IMG/VR virus record: IMGVR_UViG_3300032241_000927
Span: 1 to 42,269 of that record
Length of the DNA: 42,269 nucleotides
Direction: 5' to 3' (one strand)
From: a virus
The notes below the pieces were generated by a model. That model saw nothing but the letters and a program-made list of their open reading frames with translations. It had not been told where the DNA came from and searched no databases. Positions 14,504 to 42,269 of this stretch are shown here, piece by piece; position 1 is the stretch's first letter; every line of letters begins with the position of its first letter. The position numbers were made by a program, and so were the translations under genes.

Positions 14504-17500
14504 TTATCCTTCTAATGGAGATCCTGATTGATCTATAATAGCAATTCCTGTATCATCTTCAAGTGCAGGATCACCTCCGTAATAATAATTATCTGGCAAT
14601 TCAGCAGGACTATCCTGTAAAAATACAGCCTGTAAAGTATCACTATCTATTAACGATAATGTTTTAGTACTGTTAACTTCTGTATTCCAAACTGACGATC
14701 TTTCAACCTGACGTTTTACCACAGTTAATTTTATGTCTGGGTAGACACCTTCAGGAATATTTAATGTAATTTGCTGAGTAGATGTATTAACAGTAAACTC
14801 AGGAGGTTGATACTTCAATCCTTTGTATACGTATCCTCTAAATGAATTTTCTTCCTTAGAATTTTCAAATACCCATACTTCATTTGTTGCTGTAACAATA
14901 TATGAAGTATTTAATATTCCAGTAACTGGCAAAGAAGTTATGTTATCTACAAATCCAACTGAGCTTATTGCAGGACTATCATATGAAACTGAGATGTCTT
15001 GATGATACGTTCCTTCTTTGTTTAGCAATCTGCCTCCATAATAAACACTAATTTGATCAGTAGCATTTACTATGGTAGATAATGTTATTCCACTATTTAC
15101 AAATGTTGCTGTATTTGCTAAGCCTGTATAATATTGAACTATATTACTATTTGTTGAAATTGTATAGACTGTACTTGTTGTTGTTAATGTATTTTGTACA
15201 AGAATTGTTTCACTGTAAGGAACTGTTTGATCAGTTCCTTGATCAATAACTTTTGTATTTTCTTGACTATAGAATTTAGGTGCAGTACCTAATGTACTTC
15301 TACGAAGTTGTCCTAATATATTACCATTGACTTTAAAAAACTCAATTCTTTCTCCATCAATAATTACAACACCAGGAATATTTTTATCAACAATTGGTTG
15401 TGTTAATACTGTTGCATCAGCAACATTTATTTCTGTATCTGTAAAAAATAATGGACTAGTTAGATAGGTAGTGTTTTGTTTACTCAAACGTTTAAATTGT
15501 GTTCTATTAAACAAATCATTGAATATTCTATAACCCAATACCGTGGTGGACAAATCAGTACTATTAAATGTTCTAATTACAATTTGATCTTTAGCTCCAA
15601 TTGTAAATTTATCAGATATTTGGACAGTAACACTGTCATCTAAAATTTCAAAATCAACAAAATTAACCAAAGGTATACCATTTAGACTTACCCATATATA
15701 ATTTTCATCTAACACTGGACGACTAATTTTAAATCTATGATTTGAATTTCCAAAGAATTTTTCTGTTCTCATTAACATATCGTCTTGATCGGTATATGTT
15801 ATAACTCTAATCTCGCCACTCCAATTGGTATTCCATCCAAAATAATTAGAATATGTAGGGGGCGCACATAATAAAAGATTGTTTCCAATAATATCATATT
15901 CATAATCTTGTCTAGGAAGATTTGTAGTAGGATAAGATGGTGAAGATGATTTATACAAAATTGCTACAACATCACCCGGATTTAGTACTGGTTGTATTAT
16001 AGTAACAAGGCCAGTGGAATTTACCGAGAAATCAAATCCTCTTAATAATTCCTGCCCGTTAATGTATGCACGCACATTTTCTAATCCAAAATCATTGGTA
16101 TCTCCATTATATCCTACAGTATCAGTTATTTGGAATGTATTTGTATTTCTATCATACACCTGATAGTAATCGATGTGCGGAGGAACTAATAATTTTCTAC
16201 CATTACTATCAGCAAAATCAACAATTGCATTGGCTACTTCAGGTTTAATATTGCCTGGAGGTTGAGTTAATGCTATTGGAAATTCTGTATATACAGTAGC
16301 AGTAGATAGTGTATTAATTTTAATAATCTGTTCGTTAATTTCATTAAATGTTTTATGATCAGTACCAAAGAACCAAACACTAACTCTGTTTTCACCATCT
16401 GGTAAATTATAAACAATAACAGCCGCTCTACGATTGTTATTATTTGCTGAAGTCAATACGTATCCATAATTTGATGATGTAGTTACAGCGGATATAGATT
16501 GACCGTTAACTGTTACATAAGCAGTCTTAACTGTATTAACACCAGATATACTTTGTATTTCAATTGTAGTTTGGTCAGTTACTATGCTTTGAGAGTCTGT
16601 TAATCCTGTTTGATTTTCAGTGCTATTGCTACCTATAGTTACTATAGTATAACCTAATTTTCCCGACACAGGTTGTGGAGGAATAATTAATTCGTTTAGA
16701 TCCCAATTAATGTTATACATTGTCGACGAAGTTATATTTGTTGCAGTATAGCTAAAAATTGTTCCATTATATGTAACCATAACGCTGGCACTATTTGGAG
16801 GAACAACACTCATAACTCTAGTCGTAGTCGATCCTGCTACTACATCAATATATGATGATACTATAACTGGAGACGCTTGTGGACTCTTTGTGTATACATT
16901 AATGCCTAAACTTTCAACAACTTCTCCAGGCACCATTTCTTCTGGAGCATAGCTCGTGTTAGGTGTTAAGAATCCATCACCATCGATGATAATATCAGAT
17001 GGATTAATTCCTAATGCAGTTGTATATCCTAAATCGCCACCTCTTATTGAACTGTCTAATACACTAGAATCGGTATTATAACTCCAAAATTCTATTACAG
17101 AACCTGTGCTTATAACATTAACTGTGGTAGTATTAATTGTAACTACATTTGTGATTGGATCTACACCTACAACTTTAGGATTAGTTCCACTAAACACATT
17201 AGATGTGGTGCTTATTACTGCTACACTTTGTCCAATTGTAACTCCTGATATATCCGATAATTTAATAGTTGATGAAGTACCTGTAGTATTATAGGATCTG
17301 TTAGTCGACGTTGTAACTGTATAGAATCCAAAATTGTCATCCCACAATGCTGTATCATAACCATTGATATCCCATTGGGTAGTGTAATCAAACATCAATC
17401 CTGTTATTCTAGTTTTAGGATAATCAATTCCGGTCATTAGTTGTCCTAAATCTAGGCCTGGCATACCAGATGTAGCTGTATAATAATTTTCTATTCTGTC

Positions 17501-20500
17501 AACAGCATTTAACACACTTTGACTTTTATTATAGGTAACTGATAATACCTGTCCTAACTTAGGAACATAATTTAAGAATGAAATTTTACTATAATGTTTT
17601 GCATAACCATTATAAGTTTTTACATAATTTTTAATTGTATAATCAGAATTTAATATCAATGATCTGTCAAGAGTAACCACAATCTTAGATTTATCTAACT
17701 CGGCTAACCAAGTTAATGAAAACTCCGAATCTGTGCCATTACAATTAAAACTATCAGATGTTACGACATTTCCAGCCTGTGATACTTTGCTAGTTCTGTC
17801 AAATTTTAATCCAATTGTAGTAGATCTTACTTTGTTATTTGCAATGTATGGATACGCTGTTGCAGTAGTTATAACTGATCCGCCACCTAATATACTAACC
17901 TTGGGTGTGGTTATGTATCCGCTACCTGAATTAATTACTCGAATTTGAGAAATTGCACCGGAGCTTACATATGCTTCGGCAGTAGCAGTAGTACCTCCTT
18001 CAAGATCTGGATCAGAAATAATTATCTGCGGAGCTTCGGTATATCCTGCTCCTGAATTTCCTAATGATATTTCAGACACAAAATCAGAGTAATTATCTGC
18101 CCAGGATTTCCAAGGATATTGAGAAATATATGAACTACTTGTATCTACTGTTATAAACTTGTCAGAAGATTTATCATATATTGCAGGTAAATCAAAATCA
18201 GTTATAAATGATCCACTAGGATCTGTTAATGTATAATTAGTAGTAAATGTTCTTATCTGCGTATGATAAGGTTTAACTTCATTTACATAATCTTCATAAT
18301 AACTACTGTTCTGTAATTTGTATACCAATCGTTGATCCAACCCACCAGCATAATTTGTAACATTGATAAATGATGTTTTAAATGCCCAGTCTAATAATTT
18401 CTGTTCTGATAGTGCATACTTAACTGCTCTGAAGAATAATAAATTCCAATTAACTTTTAAGTCATTTACAAATAAATCTTGTTTCAATGCTGTTAAAATA
18501 TACAATAATTCAGCATCAGGAGTTTGATCATACAATGTTTGATCGTAGGTATTTTCATCATAAGCAAGATTTGTATTTCTAATGTCCCATAAATTAGATG
18601 ACAACTCTATTGTTCCATTTTGAGAATAAACAATATTATAATCAGAATCAAATGTTCCGTTGCCAGTATCTATTTTTTCTAATATAACATAATAACCTAA
18701 TCCTGCATTTTTAACTTTAACATATTGTCCAGTAGATACAGTTATTTCATTAAGCTCGTATAATTCATCTATTGTATATGCAATATCTACAAAAGGATTA
18801 TATGAAGAATCAACCCAATCAATATAATTCCAATATAAAGTTGTATTATAAGCCTGAGTATGTGATCTTACCCAAGTTTTAAAATCTGTGTCAAATATAA
18901 ATTTAGTCCATTTACCGTTATAGGTAGAATCGGCCTGTACAATAACAGTATAAGGTCTTACTGTTAACTCAGGAGGAACTGTAAAACCACTACCAGCATT
19001 CTCAATGTTAACAGAAACAACACGCCCATTTGCATCAATTGTTGTACTAATAGATGCAACCGTACTACCGTTGATAGAAACTGTAGGACTAATTTTATAT
19101 CCATATCCTGGATTATTAATTGTAACACTGGTTATTTTACCATTTTCTACAGTACAAGATAATTGTGCTGTGGCAAATAATTGTGTATCAATTAATAATA
19201 ATGCTTCGTTATCTTCAACCGATTGATCATATTCTTGAGTTGTTACATCGGGAATTTGTTCTTGTTTATTAAGATTTACAAAACTGTAATTACCTGTAAT
19301 TCTCTGATCGACCAACACATTGTTTACAAATTCAATAATATTTCTTAGTGCAGAATATCTATTTTTAAACAAAGTCTGTCTTGGTCTAATACCAATACCA
19401 TATTTTGCTCTTTCAGACAGTGCAGGATCAGGTACAAGATTTCCCAGGCTATCATGACCTATTAAACTATCTATAAGTTTTTTCTCTAGTAATGTGTTAG
19501 GTACACTTTCTGCTGACCCTTCTTGTAACAGCAACCATTCAGTATGACGAGGAATTGTATTATCAATAACATCTGATGTGATGTTTAAATGTATTCTATC
19601 ATCAACCAATAAGTTTCCAACATTAGCAACTCCGACTGCATCTCTAGATAATGCAGAAATATACATTAATCCATATGATTTAGGATTGGTAATTATTTCT
19701 GCAACATCAAACGCAGATATTCTTCTATTTTTTACATTAGGAACAGTTGTTTTATTTTTTACCCAGAAGTAATAATAATTTGTAAATGAATCACTTAATG
19801 GATTATAAATTTGTTTAACTGCAACAACATCGTTATTTGGATATTTAGGTTGTCCACTAATACCATTGCTTAACCCAACAGCGGTATCTGCTAGGCTAGC
19901 CCATTGACTAGGTAGTATTGTTGATTCAACCCATTCATATACATCAATACTCGAACCTGGAAATAATTTACCCCAATTATTTTTACGGTATTCTACTTCA
20001 CCTTGTTCGTACCATACATATTTGGCTATTGATAAATCCCACCATAGCTCTCCAACTTGCTCGTTGGACCAATTTGTATTAGTATCGTTGACTGTAGCAC
20101 TTGTACCTAATGAATAAACAGCAGGGTCAAAAGAAGAACGATATTTTAATTCTTGTTCTGCTAGTCCTGAAATTTTTCCTTTTACAGGATCTATAACTTC
20201 AAGATAATCAACAAGTTCTTCATTGAATGCATCAATTAAAGAAACTTTTTGTATTGTATCTGTTACTACTAAATCGTCTTGAGATCTAATTAAACTCCAG
20301 CTTTGAGTACCTGTATTGATTTTATAAAATTGATAGAATGCACTTGTAGCAGTATCTGGATTTGTATTATTTTTATAAGCAGGAGCTCCTACATAAATGC
20401 TATTTGCATTTACAGAAACACTGAAACCAAAATTAGTTCCAGTATTTGTATCAACAGGAGTTAATTCATCAGCAAGTTTGAATAAATTTGCCTTCTTATT

Positions 20501-23500
20501 ATAAACATAAGTCGTACCAGAATATATAACATCATCAAAGAAAGATGTTGATCCTAGATCAAATGTAGTTTGAGAATCACTGTATTCGCTGTTTGAGTCG
20601 TTTACATAGTTTCCTAGCAACACAGAGTATCTGTCAAATGTATCAGAAATATGTCTATTTGTACCTATTGCAGAAATTACCAATTCATTTGTGTTAGGAC
20701 TTATTCCTAGAGATTGGCCAAATTTCATTCCTACTCCTGCTACAGGATTATTGATAATTTGTATCAATGAATATGTGCCAGAAGACATATTATATACAGC
20801 AACTTTACCATATGATTGATCGTCGCCTCTTGCTTCCGGTGCAGAAATAAACAGATAGTCACCAGTTGAACTTACAGAAATAGATTCGCCAAACTTTGCA
20901 TATTTGCCAAAAGGACTATTAATCGTTTGGAGGTAATTAGTAGCTGTGCCTGTGAAGATATTTACTAGGCCTGTTCTATTAGAATAACCAGGAGCACCTA
21001 CTGCAATTATCTCTGCATTATTAGAACCACTAATTGTATATCCCCATTGACTTCCTGCTGATACTCCAGTTGCTGATAATATTCCATTATAAGCAATATT
21101 AATATTACCACCAGTAGTCGTCATCCAGTATGAATACACAGAACCTACACCTGTACCAGATGCTTGTGTAGCACCTACTAATAGCAGTTTGCCTTGATCT
21201 GTATTTGCCTGATATATACTACTTCCGAAACGTTCATAGTTTGATGGATTAGGACTTAATAATACTTTTTCTGTATTTTCTTCAACTAGTATAGGAGAAA
21301 TACTACTAATTTTTACAAGACCTTCTTGCACATATGTAGAAGTAGTACCTGTAGAACTAGCAAACCTTAACCCACCAGGAGCATCATTGGATAATATTCT
21401 ATCAGTTAATGGAGCACCTGCAAATAATAATCCATATCCTGTATTATTAAATTCTTGTTCATCATAAGCAACAGACCATCCAAATCCTGTATCTGAACCG
21501 TGATGATATGTGTTATTAGAATTAATACCGTATCTAAATTTTTCGTTAACAGAGTACGGAACTTCACTGTACACAAATACACTTCCAGTATTATTAGAAC
21601 TTACAAATCCAGGACTACCAACTAAGAAAATATCAGAATTTTTTCTATTACTAATACTCCAACCTAATCGTTGGTCAACTGGGGACGTAGATCCTGTTAC
21701 AGCATAATCGTTATAATTTTTAATTTTTTCATACACTGCCCAATGTCCGGTGCCATCATCATCGACCCATACTTTAGAATTTTCTTCTAAAGATAATAAG
21801 TTTTTATCGTCGGGCAACGAATCAAACCCATCGTATCTAACGCTAGGAAATGTAAACAACAATCCAGGATTAGATGGTATTAATTGAGAGATGGCAACGG
21901 TAGATGTACTAGTAATACTAAATTCACTCAATGACGGAACCGAAGATATTTTATATATTCCGTCCATTGTACTGTCAAATTCGCTGACAGAAATAATATC
22001 ACCTGCTGATAAACCGTGAATACCATCTGTGACAAAATTAAGTTGATCATTTACTATTGGATCAGGAGTCATACTTATAATTCTTGAGGGAGATAACGTA
22101 TATCTTAAAACATCCCAATCGTTATTATTTTTATTTGCAACCCAAATAATACTACCTTCGCTGATAGAATTAGTAGTTGTAAAAGTTAACAATCCATCTT
22201 CAGTAAACGAAGTTAAATTAACATCATCAAATCTAGCATATCCTGCTGTGTTTAATTGCATTACATCTATATCTGATGTTGTTACAAACGTGGCAGATGA
22301 TTGATAATTTGAAGGAGTTATAACTAAATCACTAGGTAAACTATAATTAATCAACTCTGCAGGAGGTACAGGCACAGAATCAACAAAATTAATTGTTTGC
22401 GGATTATCTGCAAAAGTTCCTTCTATTAATGGTACTTCTAATTCTTTAAATGTTTCAAATGATCCGTAATATCCAACACGGAATGCCCATTCTTCTCTAT
22501 AATCTATTTGTCCTTGTAGATTATGTATTGTGGCCTTGGCTAATTTACTAATTGCGTTTTTAGTTCCCTTTTCTCTAATAAACCCTTGATAGAATTTATA
22601 TTGTGCAATAGGATCTGTAAAAATATTGTTTAGGTATGTACGAGGAGTATATCCTGTTAGATGCTGTGCCATTTGTTGTTGACCAGCATCAAAGTTATCA
22701 ATATCTAAACTATAAAAATCTTCAAACTGATTAATTTTATAATCAAAGTTTGGTAATAATGCGGCAACTGGTTTTGATCCCAACACTGTCCAACTTGAGA
22801 ATTCAAAAGAAGTTGTACCAACTAAATTAGTATTTGCTGAGTAATAATTACCATTAAATCTAACAACATCACCTGCGTTGTAATCTGTATAAGTTTTCCA
22901 ATCAGAAATAATAGCAGAATCATAAACAAACCCCGGACTGAAGTAATCTCCATTCCAGTTTGCTGTTCTAAATCCAACCAATTTCATTCTATGTTGGCGG
23001 TATCCAGATTGAATATCATATATAGTATCATTAAACAATGTTGCATTATTGAATATGATAGCGTGTTCTTTTTGTACACTATTCAACTTGGCAAAGAAAA
23101 TTCCGTCAGTTGAATTGAGTGTTTTAATTGTACAAATTCCATTATCTCTAGAAATAGACAATGCCTTTTGAGGGAACGCAACGGCATTGGCTTTTAATAT
23201 ACTGTAATCATAAAAACTATTAAAAATATTATCAACTACAGAATTTGCCAATTGAAATTTAATTTGATCAGCAAATGGACTTAATGCTACAATACTTCCA
23301 TTTGCCCAATTTTGGGTAGTCCAGTACAAAAATTCTTTGCCAGTAAAATCCCAATTTAATACTGTTTGTAAATCGGTGTTATACTCATCAAAAATAAATC
23401 CTTGATCTTCTAACCACGCACCGTAACCAAGTATCACATCATAGACTTCTTGAATCGTATTAAACTCTGTCCCGTATGGAATATTAACTGCTACTCCATC

Positions 23501-26500
23501 AAATTTTGTTGCTGTTTTTACAGTTGCTCCACCTGTTGTTGGTAATCCTGGCAATATTTGGAAGTATGCAGGATTAAAACTTTCAGTACTCCTGTGACTA
23601 GTTGTTACACGATAAAAAGAATTTTTATACTTAACAATTTGTCCTTGTTGATAAAATGTTCCTGCTATTGCCGCATTTGCAGTGGTTGTATCGACTGCTG
23701 ATAAACCTGTTTGACCTGTAGTTGAACTTTCTGCCCAATTTACATAGGATGATGATATACCGCCAACTGTGATAGATGAGGCATTAGAATTTCGAATTAC
23801 TCCGTATACTGTAAAGTAAGGAGACGATGTATCAAACCCTCTAACAAGTAATTTTCCATTGTTTTTTTGTACAATGACTCCTGATATTGCTGATGATTTA
23901 ATAGGATTGCTTACATTAAGAATTAAATTATAATCTTCAGCATTTAACAATGCTCCAGGACTTGTGCTTGTAGGATCAATAGCATCTATAATAATTTGTA
24001 TTTTAGATTTGTTAACAAATCCACCTACTTTATAAAATAAATTAAATGTTAGGTTACTTAAATCACTTTGTAATTCTGTATCATAATTTCCTGTACGCTG
24101 GCGACCCACTTCACTAACAAAAACGCTATAACCACTGGTTAATGTATTATTTGGTCCTTGAATATAAACATTTTGTAAATTTAAAAATTCATAATTAGAG
24201 CCATATGTCCATTGACCTGCAATATTTTTATTGATTCTAATCGGATCATACATCAATGATGCATATGTAGCAGATTTAGTTAATGCCATTAATTTTTGTA
24301 CAACAAATGGCCAATAACTACTGCGTCTCCACGCAGTTTCTGCCGCGCCCTGATCACCAAATACCCAAGGCTGTCTTCTGCTATAAGGAGTAATGTCTGA
24401 TGCCAACAATACTGTAGGATCAACTAACTTTCCGCTATCATCAACTGGCAATAACTGACTTAGTTGTGGACGAGCATAGATTGAATTTACTCCTGCTCCG
24501 GATCCTTGTTTAATAATACCTTGTTCAAGATCGCCCCATAGGATATCATTTCCTGATGTATAAGGAGCAGGACCGTATTCACTGGTCCACCACTCTGGCT
24601 CTTCAGAAAATCCTAACATTTCCCAAGGACAAGTATCTGGTCTGTCAGTATCATAGAAATGTTTGTATATTGCTCTCCAACTACCTGTTAATGGAATACT
24701 TAACGTGTTGTTATAACTCTCAGTGTAGTTCCAGGTAAAAGGATTTGTCTCATTAAATGCTGTGTTGGTTACATAATCAACATTATAAAGACCTGTCCAT
24801 TTAATAAATTCTTTTACTAAAATTTGTTTGATTTCATCTTGAGTGTAATCGTTATTCCTAAATGCACCAGGAAGAACTGAATTAATATCTAATAATTCTG
24901 ATCTATATTCTGCTTTTATGTTATTGTAGATTCTAGTTTCAAACTCTAATATAATGAGATCTCTATAATCATTATATGCAACCATAATACTACCATCGTG
25001 ACCTTGTATCACAGTGGTAGGTGTTACATAAGTATTGTCAACATAAATGCTAGGAGTAAATTTTGGATACAATCCTAGTTTTGAAGGAGTAGGAGGAACA
25101 AAAGATCCTTTTGTATCTGTATAATCATTTATTACAATTGTATCACCAATTGCAATATCTACAAGAATTTCAACTGATGCATCTGCAACAATAAATTGAT
25201 AATCTCTGTCTCTTATTAATTGAATTCCATTTAGATATACCAATACTGATCTTAATGTTAACGCATTAGGATTATAATCTGATGTTATAGGAAATATTTT
25301 ACTATTGGTGTTAGTAACAGTCCAGGTTTTAGTAATTTTGTCAGTACCATATGCTATCATATCTGATAGATAGTAAGGAGACAATAAATCTTTTTCAAAA
25401 TTAATTTCAGTTAATGCTGTATCAACTGCTGTTATCGGGTCTGTTTGAATATCAAGATTAGAAATTTTTCTTAGGAATGATAATTTGTATTGATTATATT
25501 GATCAGCAACTTTGGTCACAGCATCCACGACACTATGCTCTTTTTTTCCTATGAAAAGATGAGCAAATGCAATTGGATTTATATTAGATATGAATCGAGT
25601 ACCGTAACTAGAAGGATCAGCCAAATCTCTTAAATTATTATCCCCAGGAACTACTCCAATAAAATCAGGATCTCGATCAGCCATAGTGCTAACGTGATCT
25701 GTAATTTCGCTGAGTGTAAATGCAGGTATGGGACCATTTAACGGATTGTTTGTAAGGCCCAATGGTGTTTCATAATACGATTGTTCAGAGGTTGCAGTTG
25801 TTAATAAACTAGTTAATACAGGTATAGGATATTCAACGGCTTCTTTCCATACATTGAAATATTGATCATTTATTTTAAAATATGTAATACCAGTTGATAT
25901 AGTTTCTACAGTTTGATTTGTAGTAGAAATAGTGATAGTGTCTGTCATAAAATAATTATTAAACAGATATGTTCCAACTCCTACACTATTTCTATATTGT
26001 AAAGGAAAGCCTAACACTAAATCAGCAGTACCAGAGCCAATACTATATCCAAATATTTGACTTCCTTTAAAGTTACTAGAGTAATACCTAGTATCACTAT
26101 AACTATTTCCTAAGTCATCAAATAAATCAAACAATGGTGCTTGATTTAATGAAGTATGTTGCTGAGAATAATTCCAGTTGGTTCCATCATACCACCAACT
26201 TGTACCAGCATATTTTGTTCCAAGATTAACTCCAATTACTGATCCAGCAGAAGGAGTTTCAACTTTTTGTAAAGTTAATCTTAGTTGTCCAGCAATATCA
26301 ACAAATACAACTTCATATATATTGTTTCTTATTAGACTATCTGTGTCAGCAGTAAAAATTACTTTATGACCTTGTTCTAGTAATACACCATCTATATAAT
26401 ATCCTGCAGAACCTTCTACAGTATTAAATGCATTGGTAGTTTTGCTGTCAATAAGATCAACATTACCAATTCCTTTTGATCCAAAATTATAAAGTTGCAT

Positions 26501-27409
26501 CCCTGCCGCAAACTCTATGATTGGTCGTTTGGCTCGCATATTAGTAGGGTAGACCGGTTGCTGTCCTGTTAACAATGCACTTGTGGTAATAATGTCTTTG
26601 TGTACCCAACGATTATATCTAGACCAAGGATTTAAATCTGGACTTGCTCTATTAATTGTAATATATTCAGGATTTATAGGTAATTGTTTATACCCATCAA
26701 ATGGATACTCATCGAATGGAACTGAATCAAATGTTTCACTAAACACAGTTGAAAATGTTTCATTGCTGGTTAAATTTCTAGAATCTACTAAAACTATAGA
26801 TGTTCCGACACCTTCAACAAAATATTCTTGACCTTGGTATGACTCCGGCGATACATTTGTACCGAACTGAATTTTCATTCCATTTGATAATGTTACACCA
26901 TTTGGAGATGTGTATGTTGCTTTTCCAATAAGGTCAACATCAATGTATAATGTTGACGAATCAGTAGTTTCAATTGTAATTGTATCTGGTCCGTTGACTA
27001 GCCAATAATATTCTTGATAATTTACAAACTTATCCCAATCAATTCTAGGATCATAAGAATAAAATTCTGATCTAAATATTCTATCAAAATTTTCTGCAGA
27101 TCCACCATTCAAATTAATTTCATTTATTAAGTCATCTAATGCAACAACATCATTGATATTTCCATTAATATCTTTAACTACTAATGCTGGATTTAATTGA
27201 TAATCTCTACGTAATGGCAACGTTTCGGTTATATAAACATCTGTTGCTGTATAAGTAGGAGTATTTGTAGATCCTATATAACCTTCAATGCGCTCTAACT
27301 GAGGTTTTTGAATAAGCTGGTCAATAGTACTAGCTAAGAATTTAGAATTTTTAGTTGTTTGTAAAAATTCTGGAAGTAATTCAACTGATTTAATTATTTT
27401 TTCTGCCAT
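14504..27409 (-). CDS. giant virion structural protein (4301 aa) with beta-propeller
   Basis: One unbroken reading frame of 12.9 kb, about 30 percent of the window. It sits directly after gp6, where T4 carries gp7 and gp8, but I see no clear gp7 or gp8 elsewhere here. The N-terminus is ordered ([20 protein letters not shown]). Residues about 1905-2345 hold at least five FG-GAP-like repeats, for example [20 protein letters not shown] and [19 protein letters not shown], indicating an integrin-alpha-like beta-propeller. Residues about 2740-2820 and 3105-3180 have Gly-rich [GS]GY-x2-[PT]P repeats. Around 3040-3070 is [14 protein letters not shown], a motif I recall from giant phage tail proteins. 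Ser/Thr/Asn-rich, no signal peptide. Probably a baseplate-wedge or large tail-periphery protein that binds cell surfaces; the gp7 assignment is inference. Confidence 0.8.
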
Positions 27410-37206: not shown

Positions 37207-37263
37207 ATTTGTTCCTTATATTGCTATTTAACCAATAAATAAACTGCTAATTTAATACTGTGG

Positions 37264-37291
37264 TTGACACACAACAGATTTGTGTTATACT
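37264..37291 (+). promoter_or_regulatory. sigma70-type promoter of gp55
   Basis: A perfect TTGACA at 37264-37269, 16-base spacer, TATACT at 37286-37291. Predicted start near 37298, followed by AAGGAAAAT at about 37299-37307 in the leader. A GTG start at 37260 would lie upstream of this promoter, so the coding start is placed at the ATG at 37317. An AATAAATA at 37234-37241 on the + strand may be a weak late promoter for the same gene. Confidence 0.75.
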
Positions 37292-37316
37292 CAAATATAA
37301 GGAAAATAATAAAAAG

Positions 37317-38234
37317 ATGACTCCAATATTCACCACAAGGAAAGTAAAATACTTAAACAATAGAGATTTATTAGCAGAGATACATAAAAGTAAATGCTCA
37401 TATTCAAGTTTTACCAAACCCGAATATCAGCAATACGATATTATTCTACCCAATCTTGACAAAGTAAACATTAGAACAATTGCCGAAGCTAAACGCAATC
37501 GTGCAAAGAGACTAGGAATTTATGCATTTTCTGCGGCTCGGCTGTCAGGAGATAAAAAAATTAAATTATCCGAATGTACTCCTGATTATAAAACCATAGA
37601 TAAAAAAGATATTATAATCCGAATAATGACATTTGATCATATTCCATTATCACCAGGTCGTAAAAAAACATTAAAAATTACGGCAGATAGTCATGACAAA
37701 GTAAATTTTCCACCGTATCAACATTGGAAATTTAATGATCAGGACGAGTTGGTCTGCGTTGGCAAAAGCCATTGGAAAGGCGCCATTGATACCGGAGTGT
37801 TCTGTAAAGATCACGGACGCATCACAGAAAATCTTGGCAAAATGTTTATCAAGTTGTCAGAGCGTTACGCACAACGTAGCAACTGGCGTGGTTATACCTA
37901 TGTTGATGAAATGAAGGGACAGGCTATCCTACAGCTAAGTCAAATTGGTCTACAGTTTGATGAATCAAAGTCAGAAAATCCATTTGCCTATTACACTGCC
38001 GCTGTTACCAACAGTTTTACAAGAATTTTAAATCTTGAAAAGAAAAGCCAAAATATTCGAGACGACTTGTTAGAAGAGGCAGGACTAACTCCTAGTTCTA
38101 CCAGACAACATTCACACGAGTACGCAGAAGAAACTGCAAGGCAGGCAGAACTTTATAAAAATATGCGTATGCCAAAAAGTGAAGATGTACCCGAAGACGA
38201 AGAAGGTATAGAAGAGGACGAAACAGAGACTTGA
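37317..38234 (+). CDS. gp55: late-transcription sigma factor gp55, N-terminally extended
   Basis: A 305-residue protein homologous to T4 gp55 (185 residues), the sigma factor that with host core RNA polymerase recognises TATAAATA late promoters. The sigma-like part is clear: MFIKLSERYAQRSNWRGYTY, then EMKGQAILQLSQIGLQFDES, KSENPFAYYTAAVTNSFTRI and LNLEKKSQNIRDDLLEEAGL. Residues about 1-170 form a long N-terminal extension with VKYLNNRDLLAEIHKSKCSY, then a Lys-rich segment and KVNFPPYQHWKF and VGKSHWKGAI. This extension resembles that of marine T4-like phages. Acidic C-terminal tail, as in T4. Start and promoter as described. The stop TGA (38232-38234) is followed in frame by a 44-codon open stretch (see 38235). 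Confidence 0.9.
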   Translation: MTPIFTTRKVKYLNNRDLLAEIHKSKCSYSSFTKPEYQQYDIILPNLDKVNIRTIAEAKRNRAKRLGIYAFSAARLSGDKKIKLSECTPDYKTIDKKDIIIRIMTFDHIPLSPGRKKTLKITADSHDKVNFPPYQHWKFNDQDELVCVGKSHWKGAIDTGVFCKDHGRITENLGKMFIKLSERYAQRSNWRGYTYVDEMKGQAILQLSQIGLQFDESKSENPFAYYTAAVTNSFTRILNLEKKSQNIRDDLLEEAGLTPSSTRQHSHEYAEETARQAELYKNMRMPKSEDVPEDEEGIEEDETET

Positions 38235-38259
38235 CTTTATTCACTGTGCCTGTTAAACT
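38231..38259 (+). promoter_or_regulatory. possible sigma70-type promoter before gp47
   Basis: TTGACT at 38231-38236, overlapping the gp55 stop codon, and TAAACT at 38254-38259 after 17 bases. The -10 is poor (four of six), so the call is tentative. The same TTGACT -35 occurs in front of queE. If used, transcription would start near 38266 and give gp47/gp46 a separate unit. Confidence 0.4.
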
Positions 38260-38369
38260 TTTTAAATAAAAGCGATTTTCAACGGCAGACAGGTCAATGG
38301 GCTAATACCGTATTAGAAAAATCAAAAAACGGAGAATTTTATAATGGTTATAAAGCTAGGGAAGTTTAA
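38235..38369 (+). other. in-frame open extension after the gp55 stop, ending at the gp47 start
   Basis: The reading frame of gp55 continues for 44 sense codons after its TGA, to TAA at 38367-38369, which overlaps the gp47 ATG as TAATG. The translated stretch (FLNKSDFQRQTGQWANTVLE and NGEFYNGYKAREV) looks protein-like. No ATG, GTG or TTG is in frame, so it is either a read-through extension, a gene with an unusual start, or a decaying remnant. Confidence 0.35.
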
Positions 38370-39382
38370 TGGGATTATTTAAGAAAGTTGCTGTCTTTAC
38401 AGATCTTCATGTAGGACTTAAATCTAATAGTTCTGTACACCTTCGAGATTGTGAAGAATTTGTAGATTGGTTTATCGAAGAAGCTGAAAAAAATAATTGC
38501 GAAACCTGTATCTTTATGGGAGACTGGTCACATAATAGAAATAGTTTGAATCTTTTTACTTTAGATTCTAGTTTAAGATGCTTAGAAAAATTAGGTTCTT
38601 CTTTTGAACAGTTCTTTTGGTTTCCTGGCAACCACGATTTGTTTTACAAAGACAAGCGCGACATTCATTCATCGGCGTTTGGTCGTCACATTCCAGGAGT
38701 TACTGTTGTAGATGGTATTACAACTCTTGATGATGTTACCCTTGTTCCGTGGTTAGTTGGGGATGAGTGGAAGACTATGAAGGATATAAAAAGCAAATAT
38801 GTATTCGGACATTTTGAATTGCCACACTTCTTTATGAATGCTATGGTACAAATGCCCGATCACGGTGAGCTTACATCTGATGTTTTTAAAGGCCCAGATT
38901 ATGTATTCAGCGGACACTTTCATAAAAGACAGCAACAAGAACATATTATCTATATAGGAAACGCTTTTCCACATAATTTTGCTGATGCGTGGGACGATGA
39001 TCGAGGAATGATGATATTAGAGTGGGGTGGTAAGCCAGAGTTTATTAATTGGCCAGATTGCCCTAAGTATAGAACTATTAAGTTGAGCGAACTAATCGAT
39101 CGTCAGGCAGAATTAATGAAAAATAAAATGTACTTTAGAGTTAATTTAGACATCGACATTAGTTTTGAAGAAGCAAATTTTATCAAAGAAGAGTTTACTA
39201 AAAATTACGATATTAGAGAAATAGGACTACAACAAGACAAAGTTAATCTAGAAGGTTCTACCAGCGATACTCCAGATACTTTGTTTGAAAGTGTTGACCA
39301 GATTGTCACAGAACAATTGGTTAATATAGATTCAACACAATTTGAAAAATCAACTCTACTAGAAATATATAATAATCTATAA
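38369..39382 (+). CDS. gp47: recombination endonuclease subunit gp47 (SbcD/Mre11-like)
   Basis: A 337-residue calcineurin-like phosphoesterase, the same length as T4 gp47 (339). With gp46 it forms an SbcCD/Mre11-Rad50-like complex that resects DNA ends for recombination-dependent replication. Metal-binding motifs in order: FTDLHVG (Asp12, His14), MGDWSHN (Asp52), FPGNHDLF (Asn88, His89), GHFELPHF (His148) and SGHFHKRQ (His183, His185). Ribosome site AGGGAA lies just before ATG 38369. The stop overlaps the gp46 start as TAATG, so both subunits are translated together. Confidence 0.95.
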   Translation: MGLFKKVAVFTDLHVGLKSNSSVHLRDCEEFVDWFIEEAEKNNCETCIFMGDWSHNRNSLNLFTLDSSLRCLEKLGSSFEQFFWFPGNHDLFYKDKRDIHSSAFGRHIPGVTVVDGITTLDDVTLVPWLVGDEWKTMKDIKSKYVFGHFELPHFFMNAMVQMPDHGELTSDVFKGPDYVFSGHFHKRQQQEHIIYIGNAFPHNFADAWDDDRGMMILEWGGKPEFINWPDCPKYRTIKLSELIDRQAELMKNKMYFRVNLDIDISFEEANFIKEEFTKNYDIREIGLQQDKVNLEGSTSDTPDTLFESVDQIVTEQLVNIDSTQFEKSTLLEIYNNL

Positions 39383-41163
39383 TGTTTAAAATTAAAAATA
39401 TCACTGTTAAAAATTTTATGAGCGTGGGTAATCAAACCCAGGCTGTAGATTTTGCCAAAGAACATCTTACTCTTGTACTAGGTGAGAATGTAGATTTAGG
39501 TGGTGACGATACCGGGTCTCGTAATGGCACAGGAAAAACAACTATTATTAATGCGTTGAGTTATGCAGTATATGGGCAAGCACTTACTAATATACGTAAA
39601 GAAAATTTAATCAATAAGACCAACGGAAAAGGTATGTTGGTTACAGTCGAATTTGAAAAAAATGGCTATAATTATCGTATTGAAAGAGGTCGTAAGCCGA
39701 ATATTCTTAAGTTATATGTAAATGATCAAGAGTTAAAATCTGACGAAATTGAAGATGATGCTCAGGGCGATAGTAGAGAAACACAAAAAGCAATTGATCA
39801 AATGCTAGAATTAAGCCATACAATGTTTAAACATTTAGTAGCTCTTAATACATATACAGAACCTTTCTTGTCAATGAAGGCCGCAGATCAACGAGAAATC
39901 ATTGAACAATTATTAGGTATAACTCAATTAAGCGAAAAAGCTGAAAATTTAAAGTTGGCTATTAAAGAATCGAAAGATCAAATACAGGCAGAAACATTAA
40001 GAATTGAAGCAATTAAAAAAGCCAATGAAAATGTGCAAAAAAGTATCGATAGCCTAGGAATTAAAAGTTCTGTTTGGGATTCTAAGAAAGATCAAGACAT
40101 TGAATCTTTGGGTAAAGCAATAATGAAACTTGAAAGTGTTGATATCGAAGCTGAATTGCTGGCTCACCAAGCACTAAAAGTTTGGGAAGATAATGATAAT
40201 GAACTAAGAAACCTTAATAAACAAAAGGCAACATTAGAAAGTGCATTATCTCAGGCCAATAAATCAGTGATCAAGTATACCAATGAGCTAGGAAAACTTG
40301 TTGATAAAACTTGTCCAGCTTGCGAGCAAGCACTTCACGATCACAAACACGAAGAAATGTCGTCAATTGCTCAACAACATTTAGACGAAGCACAAATTTA
40401 TGCTACTAAAGTAGGCAATGACCTACAAAAAATCAGCAACGAAATTGAAAAAATAGGTGATCAGCCACATAAACCGCAGACATTTTACGATACCGAAGCT
40501 GAAGCATTGGGTCATAAAAATAATGTTGCTAGTTTAGAAAAAGAACTTATTACAAAAATTGACGAAGCCAATCCATATCAAGAGCAAATAGAAGAATTAA
40601 AGAATACTGCTATTCAAGAAATTACTTGGGATCATATTAATACAACAACTAGATTGAAAGACCATCAAGAATTTTTATATAAACTACTAACAAACAAAGA
40701 TAGTTTTATAAGGAAAAAGATTATTGATCAAAATTTAACCTATTTGAATAAACGATTAAGTCATTATATTGATGCATTAGGATTACCACATAAGGTGTTA
40801 TTCCAAAATGATCTTAGTGTAGAAATTACCCAGTTAGGGCAAGACTTAGATTTTGATAATTTATCACGCGGCGAGCGCAATCGATTAATCTTAAGTCTAA
40901 GTTTTGCTTTCCGAGATGTTTGGGAAGGATTGTATCAAAATATAAACTTACTATTCATCGATGAATTAGTAGACTCTGGTATGGATAGTGCGGGTGTTGA
41001 AAGTGCATTAGCTGTTTTAAAGAAAATGGCCAGAGAACGAAATAAAAATATATATCTTATTAGTCATAAAGACGAGCTAGTAAGTCGAGTTAATAATGTA
41101 CTTAGAGTTGTAAAAGAAAACGGATTTACCAATTATAGCAACGATATTGATTATGTTGAATAA
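39382..41163 (+). CDS. gp46: recombination endonuclease subunit gp46 (SbcC/Rad50-like ATPase)
   Basis: A 593-residue SMC-like ATPase (T4 gp46: 560). Walker A is in GSRNGTGKTT (45-54). A long coiled-coil pair (about 175-460) flanks the zinc hook CPAC (Cys311, Cys314). The signature motif is LSRGERNRLILSLSFAF near 493-510, and Walker B is LLFIDELVDSGMD at about 523-535, followed by a His-containing switch region (ISHKDE). It drives the gp47 nuclease with ATP at broken DNA ends. Overlaps gp47 by one base and the next gene by 11 bases. Confidence 0.95.
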   Translation: MFKIKNITVKNFMSVGNQTQAVDFAKEHLTLVLGENVDLGGDDTGSRNGTGKTTIINALSYAVYGQALTNIRKENLINKTNGKGMLVTVEFEKNGYNYRIERGRKPNILKLYVNDQELKSDEIEDDAQGDSRETQKAIDQMLELSHTMFKHLVALNTYTEPFLSMKAADQREIIEQLLGITQLSEKAENLKLAIKESKDQIQAETLRIEAIKKANENVQKSIDSLGIKSSVWDSKKDQDIESLGKAIMKLESVDIEAELLAHQALKVWEDNDNELRNLNKQKATLESALSQANKSVIKYTNELGKLVDKTCPACEQALHDHKHEEMSSIAQQHLDEAQIYATKVGNDLQKISNEIEKIGDQPHKPQTFYDTEAEALGHKNNVASLEKELITKIDEANPYQEQIEELKNTAIQEITWDHINTTTRLKDHQEFLYKLLTNKDSFIRKKIIDQNLTYLNKRLSHYIDALGLPHKVLFQNDLSVEITQLGQDLDFDNLSRGERNRLILSLSFAFRDVWEGLYQNINLLFIDELVDSGMDSAGVESALAVLKKMARERNKNIYLISHKDELVSRVNNVLRVVKENGFTNYSNDIDYVE

Positions 41164-41452
41164 GTACTTAGATCGTTATAAAGAACTATATTCAGAATAT
41201 ATAGAACGTGCAGTTAATTTGCATAACTACCATAAAAGTTTTATATCTGTGGCCAGTTATGATATAGGTCTACAGGTACGTAAGCAATTAAGAGCAATGG
41301 TGTCTCTTGAAAAAGAAATGTTAAAAATTTCTCGACTTGCATATCAAGAACGATTGAGACTAGTTCGAGAACAAAGACGAGAAGAAAAGGCTTATAAAAA
41401 AGCCAACCCTCAAAAAAGAGGGCCTAAACCAAAAGGTACAAAAAATATTTAA
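41153..41452 (+). CDS. small basic phage protein of unknown function (99 aa)
   Basis: A 99-residue protein; start placed at ATG 41153, inside the gp46 end, not the TTG at 41147. It should be mostly helical (YLDRYKELYSEYIERAVNLH, then QVRKQLRAMVSLEKEMLKIS), with a highly basic tail KRGPKPKGTKNI that looks like an AT-hook-type DNA-binding tail. Coupled translation with gp46 suggests a helper in DNA ends processing or nucleoid binding, as inference only. No enzyme motif. Similar small genes follow gp46 in some T4-like marine phages in my recollection. Confidence 0.7.
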   Translation: MLNKYLDRYKELYSEYIERAVNLHNYHKSFISVASYDIGLQVRKQLRAMVSLEKEMLKISRLAYQERLRLVREQRREEKAYKKANPQKRGPKPKGTKNI

Positions 41453-41467
41453 GGCATTTAGTAATCA

Positions 41468-41905
41468 ATGGAATGGACTTACCAAGGACAAATAGTTGAA
41501 GAATTACCAGAAGATTGTGTAGGATTTGTTTACATTATTACTAACTTAACCAATGACAGAAAATACATAGGCAAAAAATTAGCAAAATTCTCTAAAACCA
41601 CTTATAAAACTATAAAATTAAAAAACGGTACAAAGAAAAAGAAGAAAATTCGTAGCAAAATAGATAGTGACTGGAAAGACTACTTCGGTAGTAGTCCCGA
41701 ACTAACTAAAGATGTTACACTAATAGGCAAAGAAAATTTTAGTAGAGAAATATTATATTACTGTAAAAGCAAAGCAGAATGTTCTTATACCGAAGCAAAA
41801 TTACAATTTGAATATAAAGTATTAGAATCTACTGAATATTATAACAATAATATACAAGTTCGTGTCCATGGCTCACACATAATCAAGAAAACATTAGGCT
41901 CATAA
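41468..41905 (+). CDS. GIY-YIG nuclease-domain protein
   Basis: A 145-residue protein with the GIY-YIG nuclease core at the N-terminus: GFVYIITNLTNDRKYIGKK, where Gly19-Phe20-Val21-Tyr22-Ile23 stands for GIY and Tyr33-Ile34-Gly35 for YIG. A Lys-rich loop (KLKNGTKKKKKIRSKID) lies between the core strand and DWKDYFGSSPELTKD. The catalytic Glu is probably within TEAKLQFEYKVL. Related to SegE-like proteins of T4-like phages; these are sometimes free-standing homing nucleases and sometimes conserved genes next to gp46. Directly followed by the structured non-coding tract, so a link with a homing element should be considered. The C-terminus is short and basic. Confidence 0.8.
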   Translation: MEWTYQGQIVEELPEDCVGFVYIITNLTNDRKYIGKKLAKFSKTTYKTIKLKNGTKKKKKIRSKIDSDWKDYFGSSPELTKDVTLIGKENFSREILYYCKSKAECSYTEAKLQFEYKVLESTEYYNNNIQVRVHGSHIIKKTLGS

Positions 41906-42269
41906 GCGGTATCAGCAAGCATCGGCTAATTTCGGATGCCCTAGACTTGGATCTCGGATCACAGGGATGGAAACCTCTCGCCGCTAAGAGTACTCAACTA
42001 GTATCCTTTACAGGACCAAGATCGCAAATTCGCCGCGGTTTAGTTGTTTGAAAGATAGAAAAAGGCAAAAAGGAAGGGAGAAAAACCCTGGGTTTACCTA
42101 TATGTTAGTGTATATAGTTAAACTGCCGTTGAATGAAGACGGAGCTCGTGGTACCGGTCAACCGCCACTGTAACTGCTCTAACACTAAGTGACTGTTCGA
42201 ACTCGGATAATGTCATTTTCGCCCTTGAGCGGGCGAAGTGTGACCAAGGAATCTGGATAATACTTAAAC
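41906..42269 (+). ncRNA. putative structured non-coding RNA, unassigned family, truncated by window end
   Basis: 364 bases without a gene, visibly more GC-rich than the flanking coding DNA and full of hairpins. Paired segments: GCGG 41906 with CCGC 41981; GCATC 41919 with GATGC 41935; CAACTA 41995 with TAGTTG 42041; TCCT 42004 with AGGA around TTAC; AGGG 42075 with CCCT 42086; GTTTA 42092 with TAAAC 42119 enclosing CTATAT/ATATAG; GAGC 42142 with GCTC 42176 enclosing GTGG/CCAC and CGG/CCG with loop TCAA; GTCA 42212 with TGAC 42241 enclosing the 7-bp TTCGCCC/GGGCGAA. Unpaired parts on the + strand are purine and A-rich (42050-42085), favouring the + strand. I could not fit tRNA, tmRNA, RNase P, SRP, 6S or a group I or II intron core. 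Confidence 0.6.
42212..42244 (+). other. strong hairpin within the non-coding RNA tract
   Basis: GTCA, TT, TTCGCCC, loop TTGAGC, GGGCGAA, GTG, TGAC: eleven base pairs with one asymmetric internal loop. No T tract follows (GACCAAGGAATCTGG), so it is not a rho-independent terminator but a stable element of the surrounding structured region. Confidence 0.7.

Follow-up and report, generated by a model that had tools for sequence, protein, structure and literature searches.

The right end of the window

The window analysed here is the whole stretch of 42,269 nucleotides of IMG/VR virus record IMGVR_UViG_3300032241_000927, and it is part of a T4-like phage. On its plus strand, homologues of three T4 proteins are followed by the gene of a GIY-YIG protein and by a tract of 364 bases at the right end, which is a large knotted, elaborately folded RNA of freshwater phages. 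Here we use type I to refer to the form of the RNA found in the window. The main features of this region are:

37260-41163, + strand: T4-like homologues of gp55 (late sigma factor; 37260-38234), gp47 (38369-39382) and gp46 (39382-41163)
41468-41905, + strand: gene of a GIY-YIG protein of 145 amino acids (PHROG 447/7363), with its stop codon immediately before the RNA
41906-42269, + strand: structured noncoding RNA, type I, ending at the window edge

An initial annotation had placed the tract behind a GIY-YIG gene and the gp46/gp47 genes, and this placement agrees with the homologues identified and with the stop codon at 41903-41905, directly 5' of the RNA. Its statements that the tract has no notable open frame and is richer in GC than the phage were also borne out: the largest open reading frame within 41906-42269 has at most 49 amino acids, and the GC content is 45.9% in the tract versus 34.7% in the window, where 1.2% of 364-base segments are equally rich. 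The longest stop-free run was measured in 124 homologues: its median, 66.5 codons, is equal to that of shuffled sequence, and it reaches at least 100 codons in seven; the homologue lengths are spread evenly modulo 3 (45, 40 and 39). Because the stop-free runs are shuffle-like and the lengths carry no modulo-3 bias, the tract is not coding-like, and a protein gene at this place was rejected.

It had further been expected that the RNA goes on past the window, and the continuation is visible in a close relative (L002), which is near-identical up to the final base of the window, then forms hairpins over about 75 bases, and has its next start codon about 114 bases past the last base of the window. 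Relatives in general run about 60-80 bases beyond the window end with more hairpins. The whole RNA is at least 364 bases long, and probably about 370-450 bases with the 3' hairpins included.

Several other features of the window were recorded. A 101-amino-acid open reading frame (ORF101) at 41147-41452 overlaps the end of gp46, has no PHROG match, and is found upstream in only 20 of 124 RNA loci; its basic tail, KRGPKPKGTK, resembles an AT-hook. In the 40 phage records listed of 260, homologues of the GIY-YIG protein are often annotated as 'NAD synthetase', as is PHROG 447, and this label looks like a propagated mis-annotation. A single open reading frame of 4301 amino acids lies amid structural genes on the minus strand (14504-27409), and a QueE-like radical SAM gene at 1216-2055 may point to modified bases in the phage DNA.

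A conserved fold with four pseudoknots

The homologues were collected with a nucleotide profile built from 12 sequences, whose alignment has conserved blocks along the entire tract, and with a scan for a 3' motif, which gave at least 120 stretches. All 115 new loci from the scan match the profile, some being cut by contig or locus ends, as is expected since the scan motif was derived from the family. The profile and the scan together yielded 158 near-full sequences, of which 123 were kept below 92% identity; with the window they make 124. In the 124-row alignment, 447 columns are at least half filled. Column pairs were compared with a null of 20 simulations, in which the substitutions of each column were scattered over a tree made from the same alignment. 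At E ≤ 0.05, 24 column pairs were found, 20 of them Watson-Crick pairs that span 41921-42179 and the hairpins beyond the window. The four other pairs are 42200/42250 and 42209/42259, which are positions of a repeat described below; 41977/41987, a hairpin pair with 69% standard pairs, which is probably misaligned; and 42004/42016. The last is a fully coupled exchange of bases that do not pair (T..C in 79 of 124 sequences, C..T in 45), and it accompanies a switch from TTNAC-type loops to shorter loops, some of which are GNRA-like.

A structure of 84 pairs was tested on 24 sequences, aligned out of 26 that were chosen as diverse. In this structure 87.7% of the cells pair, compared with 72.8% in shuffled sequences and 36-44% (maximum 43.6%) when the partners were slid; 64 of the 84 pairs have two-sided changes, and the covariation is 0.446 versus 0.06-0.10 for slid partners. 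The slid control favours the structure because the structure was drawn from overlapping data, a fault from which the tree-based test is free. Single-sequence folding gave a stability no better than that of shuffles (z -0.29; equalled by 41 of 100 shuffled versions), so it is the covariation, and not single-sequence folding, that speaks for more structure than expected by chance. One conserved fold with four pseudoknots extends over the whole tract. Its parts are:

41906-41984, + strand: pseudoknot PK1, 41906-41909 with 41981-41984 in the P4 loop (GCGG/CCGC); 90.1% paired, two of four pairs two-sided
41914-41927, + strand: pseudoknot PK2, 41914-41916 with 41925-41927; 95.8% paired, two of three pairs two-sided
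41914-42049, + strand: match to Rfam family RF01718, Polynucleobacter-1 RNA, complete over model positions 1-141; 106.3 bits, gathering threshold 37, E 3.3e-22
41995-42046, + strand: helix P5, 41995-42000 with 42041-42046 (CAACTA/TAGTTG); 100% paired, four of six pairs two-sided
42050-42269, + strand: 3' portion, matched by no Rfam model, in which helices P8 to P14 and PK3 covary
42105-42188, + strand: pseudoknot PK3, 42105-42111 in the P9 loop with 42182-42188; 95.0% paired, seven of seven pairs two-sided
42128-42180, + strand: fourth pseudoknot, in which P11 (42128-42132 with 42158-42162) crosses P12 (42141-42145 with 42176-42180); 95.8% paired in each
42218-42237, + strand: hairpin P14, 42218-42224 with 42231-42237; 72.3% paired, four of seven pairs two-sided

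PK2 sits inside the loop of P2 (41919-41923 with 41935-41939), P5 encloses P6 and P7, and three pairs of P12 score higher than the maximum of all 20 null simulations. The weaker helices are P3a (66.0%), P4 (58.8%) and P14, where the variable stems align poorly. The GCGG/CCGC and CAACTA/TAGTTG closures and the long hairpin listed by the initial annotation thus recur as PK1, P5 and P14. Its view of the tract as a large ornate phage RNA is upheld by the 20 Watson-Crick pairs and the 87.7% of paired cells, and the compensatory changes that it proposed to look for in collected homologues are present, both in the 124 sequences and in the 64 two-sided pairs.

The same annotation had called the RNA unassigned and possibly novel, and had named a match to a known family as an outcome against that claim. 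The covariance-model search of Rfam returned such a match, RF01718, well above its gathering threshold, so that the claim fails for 41914-42049 and stands for the 3' two thirds. RF01718 is the sole Rfam match in the entire window; a permissive search of 41800-42269 gave nothing besides it at E ≤ 1. The models of GOLLD and ROOL, to which the initial annotation had not been able to match the tract by eye, had no match in the window. Compensatory changes in the homologues keep the consensus helices of RF01718, but of the 364 or more bases of the RNA 136 fall within the model, and the conserved structure is not limited to its 141 positions: it extends 220 bases past the match and beyond the window. 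The 5' third of the RNA is therefore a known RNA family, and the remainder is an extension that was not found described.

In Table 1 of the paper that lists it, Polynucleobacter-1 is given as probably an RNA, probably cis-regulatory and ambiguous as a riboswitch, and is assigned to Burkholderiales and to fresh water or estuary (Weinberg et al., 2010; PMC2864571). RF01718 had no match in 392 genomes of one bacterial family, a search that had no positive-control match either. In an exact-pattern scan of genome contigs 60 stretches were obtained, in which the profile matched only 28 bases, namely the pattern itself.

Matched words and related RNAs

Near its 3' end the RNA carries a short module twice:

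42189-42212, + strand: 3' module copy 1, GTGAC, spacer, AACTC and the word GGATAAT (42205-42211)
42240-42262, + strand: 3' module copy 2, GTGAC, spacer, AATCT and the word GGATAAT (42255-42261)

In general form, GTGAC and a short spacer are followed by a base, A, CTC and the word in copy 1, and by a base, A, TCT and the word in copy 2. The two words lie 50 bases apart and flank P14. The 7-base word varies among phages, yet it is the same in both copies in 121 of 124 type I sequences: columns 307 to 312 equal their partner columns in 124/124 and column 313 in 121/124, and the outer base of the repeat (column 302) agrees between the copies in 95/124. In all 124, the word is preceded by CTC in the first copy but by TCT in the second. 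Ten distinct words were found (GGATAAT in 37 sequences, GGATGAT in 36, GGATGAA in 31, AGATAAT in 10, and six rarer ones); since three of them account for 104 of the 124 sequences, the word is not free to vary at will. By parsimony, each of the 11 changes at column 307, and each of the 11 at column 311, is shared by the two copies on a single branch; column 313 shares nine changes (of 12 and 11) and column 302 nine (of 30 and 21).

Several local explanations of this agreement were considered. No third column that would be a Watson-Crick partner of the word was seen to covary with it, and local base pairing of the words is without support. Gene conversion between the repeats was ruled out, because the CTC/TCT triplet within the repeat differs in all 124 sequences. 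The translational bypass of T4 gene 60 involves matched GGA codons, a stop codon and a 50-base gap. A bypass of this kind was rejected, because no open frame runs into the word (in the window, the TGA within GTGAC is in frame with it) and because the distance between the words in relatives cannot be divided by three. A repeat that is kept identical while its inner triplet is kept different suggests selection for one external partner that is recognised twice.

Such a partner was sought in the phage DNA and among the neighbouring proteins. Complements of the word in flanking phage DNA are not clearly enriched (40 eight-mers versus 31 +/- 6 after letter shuffling), and direct copies number 27 versus 42 +/- 6 in controls. 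In 198 ortholog clusters, none has the word complement at gene starts or ends in at least three of seven phage contigs, and when longer complements in six of these were checked for purine triplets, nothing clear emerged. In comparisons with the neighbouring proteins, column 311 stands out for the GIY-YIG protein (0 of 100 simulations reach it) and is weak for gp46 (0.05), and column 307 gives 0.07 for ORF101. The signal at column 311 was judged to be a deep clade split, as it is seen with both the GIY-YIG protein and gp46, and none of the three proteins clearly co-varies with the words. The negative searches of flanks and gene ends would leave a host RNA, a protein, or phage sequence outside the searched DNA as partner.

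A related form, type Ib, is closer to the Rfam consensus in one conserved block. From 77 stretches, 51 were kept by flank length and identity, of which 49 have the anchor motif. A shared word of at least six bases stands at the expected place in 31 of these 49 (for example GTGTCAAG), and a subclade with GACAGG/GACAAG has only four shared bases. Over the 49 sequences the longest shared word has a mean of 6.6 versus 5.2 in shuffled sequences (95th percentile 7), a modest excess. Behind the type Ib RNA of L445, the second word is followed by a tandem array of units of about ten bases (ATCAAATGTG). Another contig, L110, has a full RNA and an overlapping inverted partial 3' copy at its end (1-126 and 66-526), the latter possibly being an assembly artefact.

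Where the GIY-YIG gene is present without RF01718, a different conserved tract, also noncoding, often occupies the corresponding position, in some loci with a small additional gene in front of it; this tract is named type II here. Examples are L007:5680-6180, L050:5695-6180, L026, L041 and 69 pattern stretches (L261-L329). Rfam 15 gave no match to type II at E ≤ 0.5 in seven loci, with two weak hits of other families elsewhere in the loci, and RF01718 was absent from 11 of 11 type II records, the positive control coming only from a separate search of viral records. A model of the type II 5' core (R1) matches L007, L051 and L281, and up to E 10 it finds nothing in the window, L002, L011, L019, L039, L413 or L420; across 17 viral records the three of type II were matched and the type I carriers G015 and G016 were not. 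The type I profile, in turn, matches 11 type II loci at their 3' end (E 1.9e-10 to 3.9e-4), a set that includes near-duplicates. In a type II set reduced from 49 to 38 sequences, the six best pairs, all Watson-Crick, beat all 20 null simulations, and identical words, read from the printed pairs, are present in 36 of 38.

These RNAs usually lie behind the GIY-YIG gene. In a protein search of viral contigs from which the best 80 loci were taken, RF01718 stood behind the gene in 16 of the first 20. All loci fetched with the gene numbered 160, or 139 distinct ones after removal of 21 repeats; on the same strand and within 1.5 kb downstream, type I is present in 106 of them, type Ib in 5 and type II in 14, while 12 are without RNA and 2 are too short, which amounts to 125 of 137 distinct loci with enough sequence. 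Conversely, 261 loci found by RNA patterns were reduced to 204 by removal of 57 repeats, and the gene lies at most 4 kb upstream in 182 of these, 12 being too short. In the other 10, all with at least 1.5 kb upstream, no GIY-YIG gene was recognised, even when 14 queries were used at E 0.01. Thirty viral records, which may be fragments, were searched for RF01718: 15 of them, the longest having 354,680 bases, carry a single match each, and the other 15 carry none. Of these, 14 were picked because their GIY-YIG gene lacked the RNA; in the remaining one, G028, a diverged copy was detected by the nucleotide profile alone. Among cultured phages, blastn of the window, L011, L050, L039 and L413 against 50,697 phage records gave no match.

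Proposed function and comparison with known RNAs

The observations are brought together most directly if the RNA is a stand-alone, trans-acting ornate RNA of T4-like phages, with two identical words that are bound by one partner, a tentative reading to which we give a little less than an even chance. It would be transcribed with, or released from, the GIY-YIG transcript and would act in trans; the knotted body would serve as a scaffold holding two equal arms, each of which would bind the same partner in the infected cell, either a host RNA or a dimeric protein. A change of partner would bring a retuning of the word. Candidate outcomes are a sponge, a guide or an RNP scaffold.

The published label of Polynucleobacter-1 as probably cis-regulatory (PMC2864571, Table 1) calls for a comparison with the downstream genes. 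When the next open reading frame of at least 120 amino acids was recorded in 222 distinct downstream contexts, 83 short ones having been dropped, it was on the same strand in 96, as an element or riboswitch acting on a downstream gene would need, but convergent in 126, including 49 of 49 for type Ib. The convergent contexts disfavour cis-regulation, and a motif like a T4 late promoter lies between the RNA and the next open reading frame in 62 of the 96 same-strand contexts (1 of the 126 convergent ones), so that the downstream gene seems to own its start. The downstream open reading frames also vary among loci, without a fixed gene, and cis-regulation appears very improbable. A DNA-level role tied to the GIY-YIG enzyme, with the repeats as its target or the RNA as its passenger, fits the linkage at 125 of 137 distinct GIY-YIG loci, but it has to face the 12 distinct loci without RNA and the 10 distinct RNA loci without a recognisable gene. 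The word changes do not clearly follow residues of the enzyme, and compensatory base pairs require an RNA, which makes this role just as improbable. The compact fold with multiple pseudoknots and a first conserved pair that starts one base after the stop codon would suit a self-cleaving or self-processing ribozyme which frees itself from the GIY-YIG mRNA; no ribozyme or intron family in Rfam, group I and II introns included, was matched at E ≤ 1, and the lockstep words would be left unexplained. No result supports the divergent ribozyme that the initial annotation had suggested, and we hold a ribozyme to be improbable.

Two further readings concern what the words touch. The RNA is phage-borne, contains several pseudoknots and, in the way reported for GOLLD (PMC12286853), is conserved on its 3' side and variable on its 5' side; it might be an RNA-only or mainly structural molecule comparable to GOLLD or ROOL, assembling with further copies of itself, and the words might be equivalent structural contacts and not sites of target binding. 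Against this, Watson-Crick covariation with the word was found at no other position of the RNA, for which reason self-contacts by pairing are not seen; tRNA genes are absent from 50 of 50 loci scanned and from the window, and the RNA is shorter than those two. Self-assembly is accordingly regarded as unlikely. Alternatively, a trans-acting RNA with two words could be bound by a co-evolving protein dimer instead of a nucleic acid. The small choice of words, three of which make up 104 of 124, speaks for this, and so does the failure to find a nucleic acid partner in the phage DNA searched; GGATGAT, ACATGAA and GTGTCAAG are diverse, however, a wide range for one protein family, and no clear co-variation was seen in the GIY-YIG protein, gp46 or ORF101. 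A protein dimer is a somewhat unlikely partner on balance.

Returning to the trans-acting RNA with one partner, a broader proposal can be made, which we put forward cautiously as appreciably short of an even chance: a new, modular and retargetable class of phage RNAs, in which a two-word 3' module for the bivalent capture of one host molecule is combined with either of two interchangeable cores, that of type I, to which Polynucleobacter-1 belongs, or that of type II. If this is true, the lockstep evolution of the words and their switching between lineages are as expected. The coupled words predict the bases that touch the partner, a handle that is rare among orphan ornate RNAs. What had been catalogued as a short orphan motif, probably of cis-regulatory function, is here a phage RNA of several hundred bases with a defined fold and genomic place, which is widespread among viral contigs, the longest having 354,680 bases; the analysis also corrects where RF01718 ends and adds a companion family of RNAs that Rfam does not match. 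No published description was found of the long form or its linkage to phages, nor of the matched words or type II, and the additional files of the 2010 paper may add more.

The type II RNA resembles the RNA of the window in its position at the locus, in its 3' module with matched words and in its 3' hairpins, whereas its 5' core is unrelated and it has no database name. According to PMC12286853, GOLLD is likewise a phage-borne ornate RNA with a conserved 3' and a variable 5' region, but many GOLLD RNAs exceed 800 bases, compared with about 370-450 here, and the RNAs of the window type are not near tRNAs (0 of 50 loci). ROOL, as described in the same source, is also phage-borne, with multiple pseudoknots and without a known protein partner; the RNA of the window is shorter than the 659-base ROOL example and does not lie beside tRNAs. 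Polynucleobacter-1 is also among the closest known systems; the 5' third of the RNA is a full-length match to its model with helices P2 to P7. The match ends at 42049, whereas the conserved RNA is nearly three times longer and has four pseudoknots, of which PK2, inside the Rfam part, and PK1, over its 5' edge, are not in the Rfam structure line; and the RNA of the window type is carried by phages, without one constant downstream gene.
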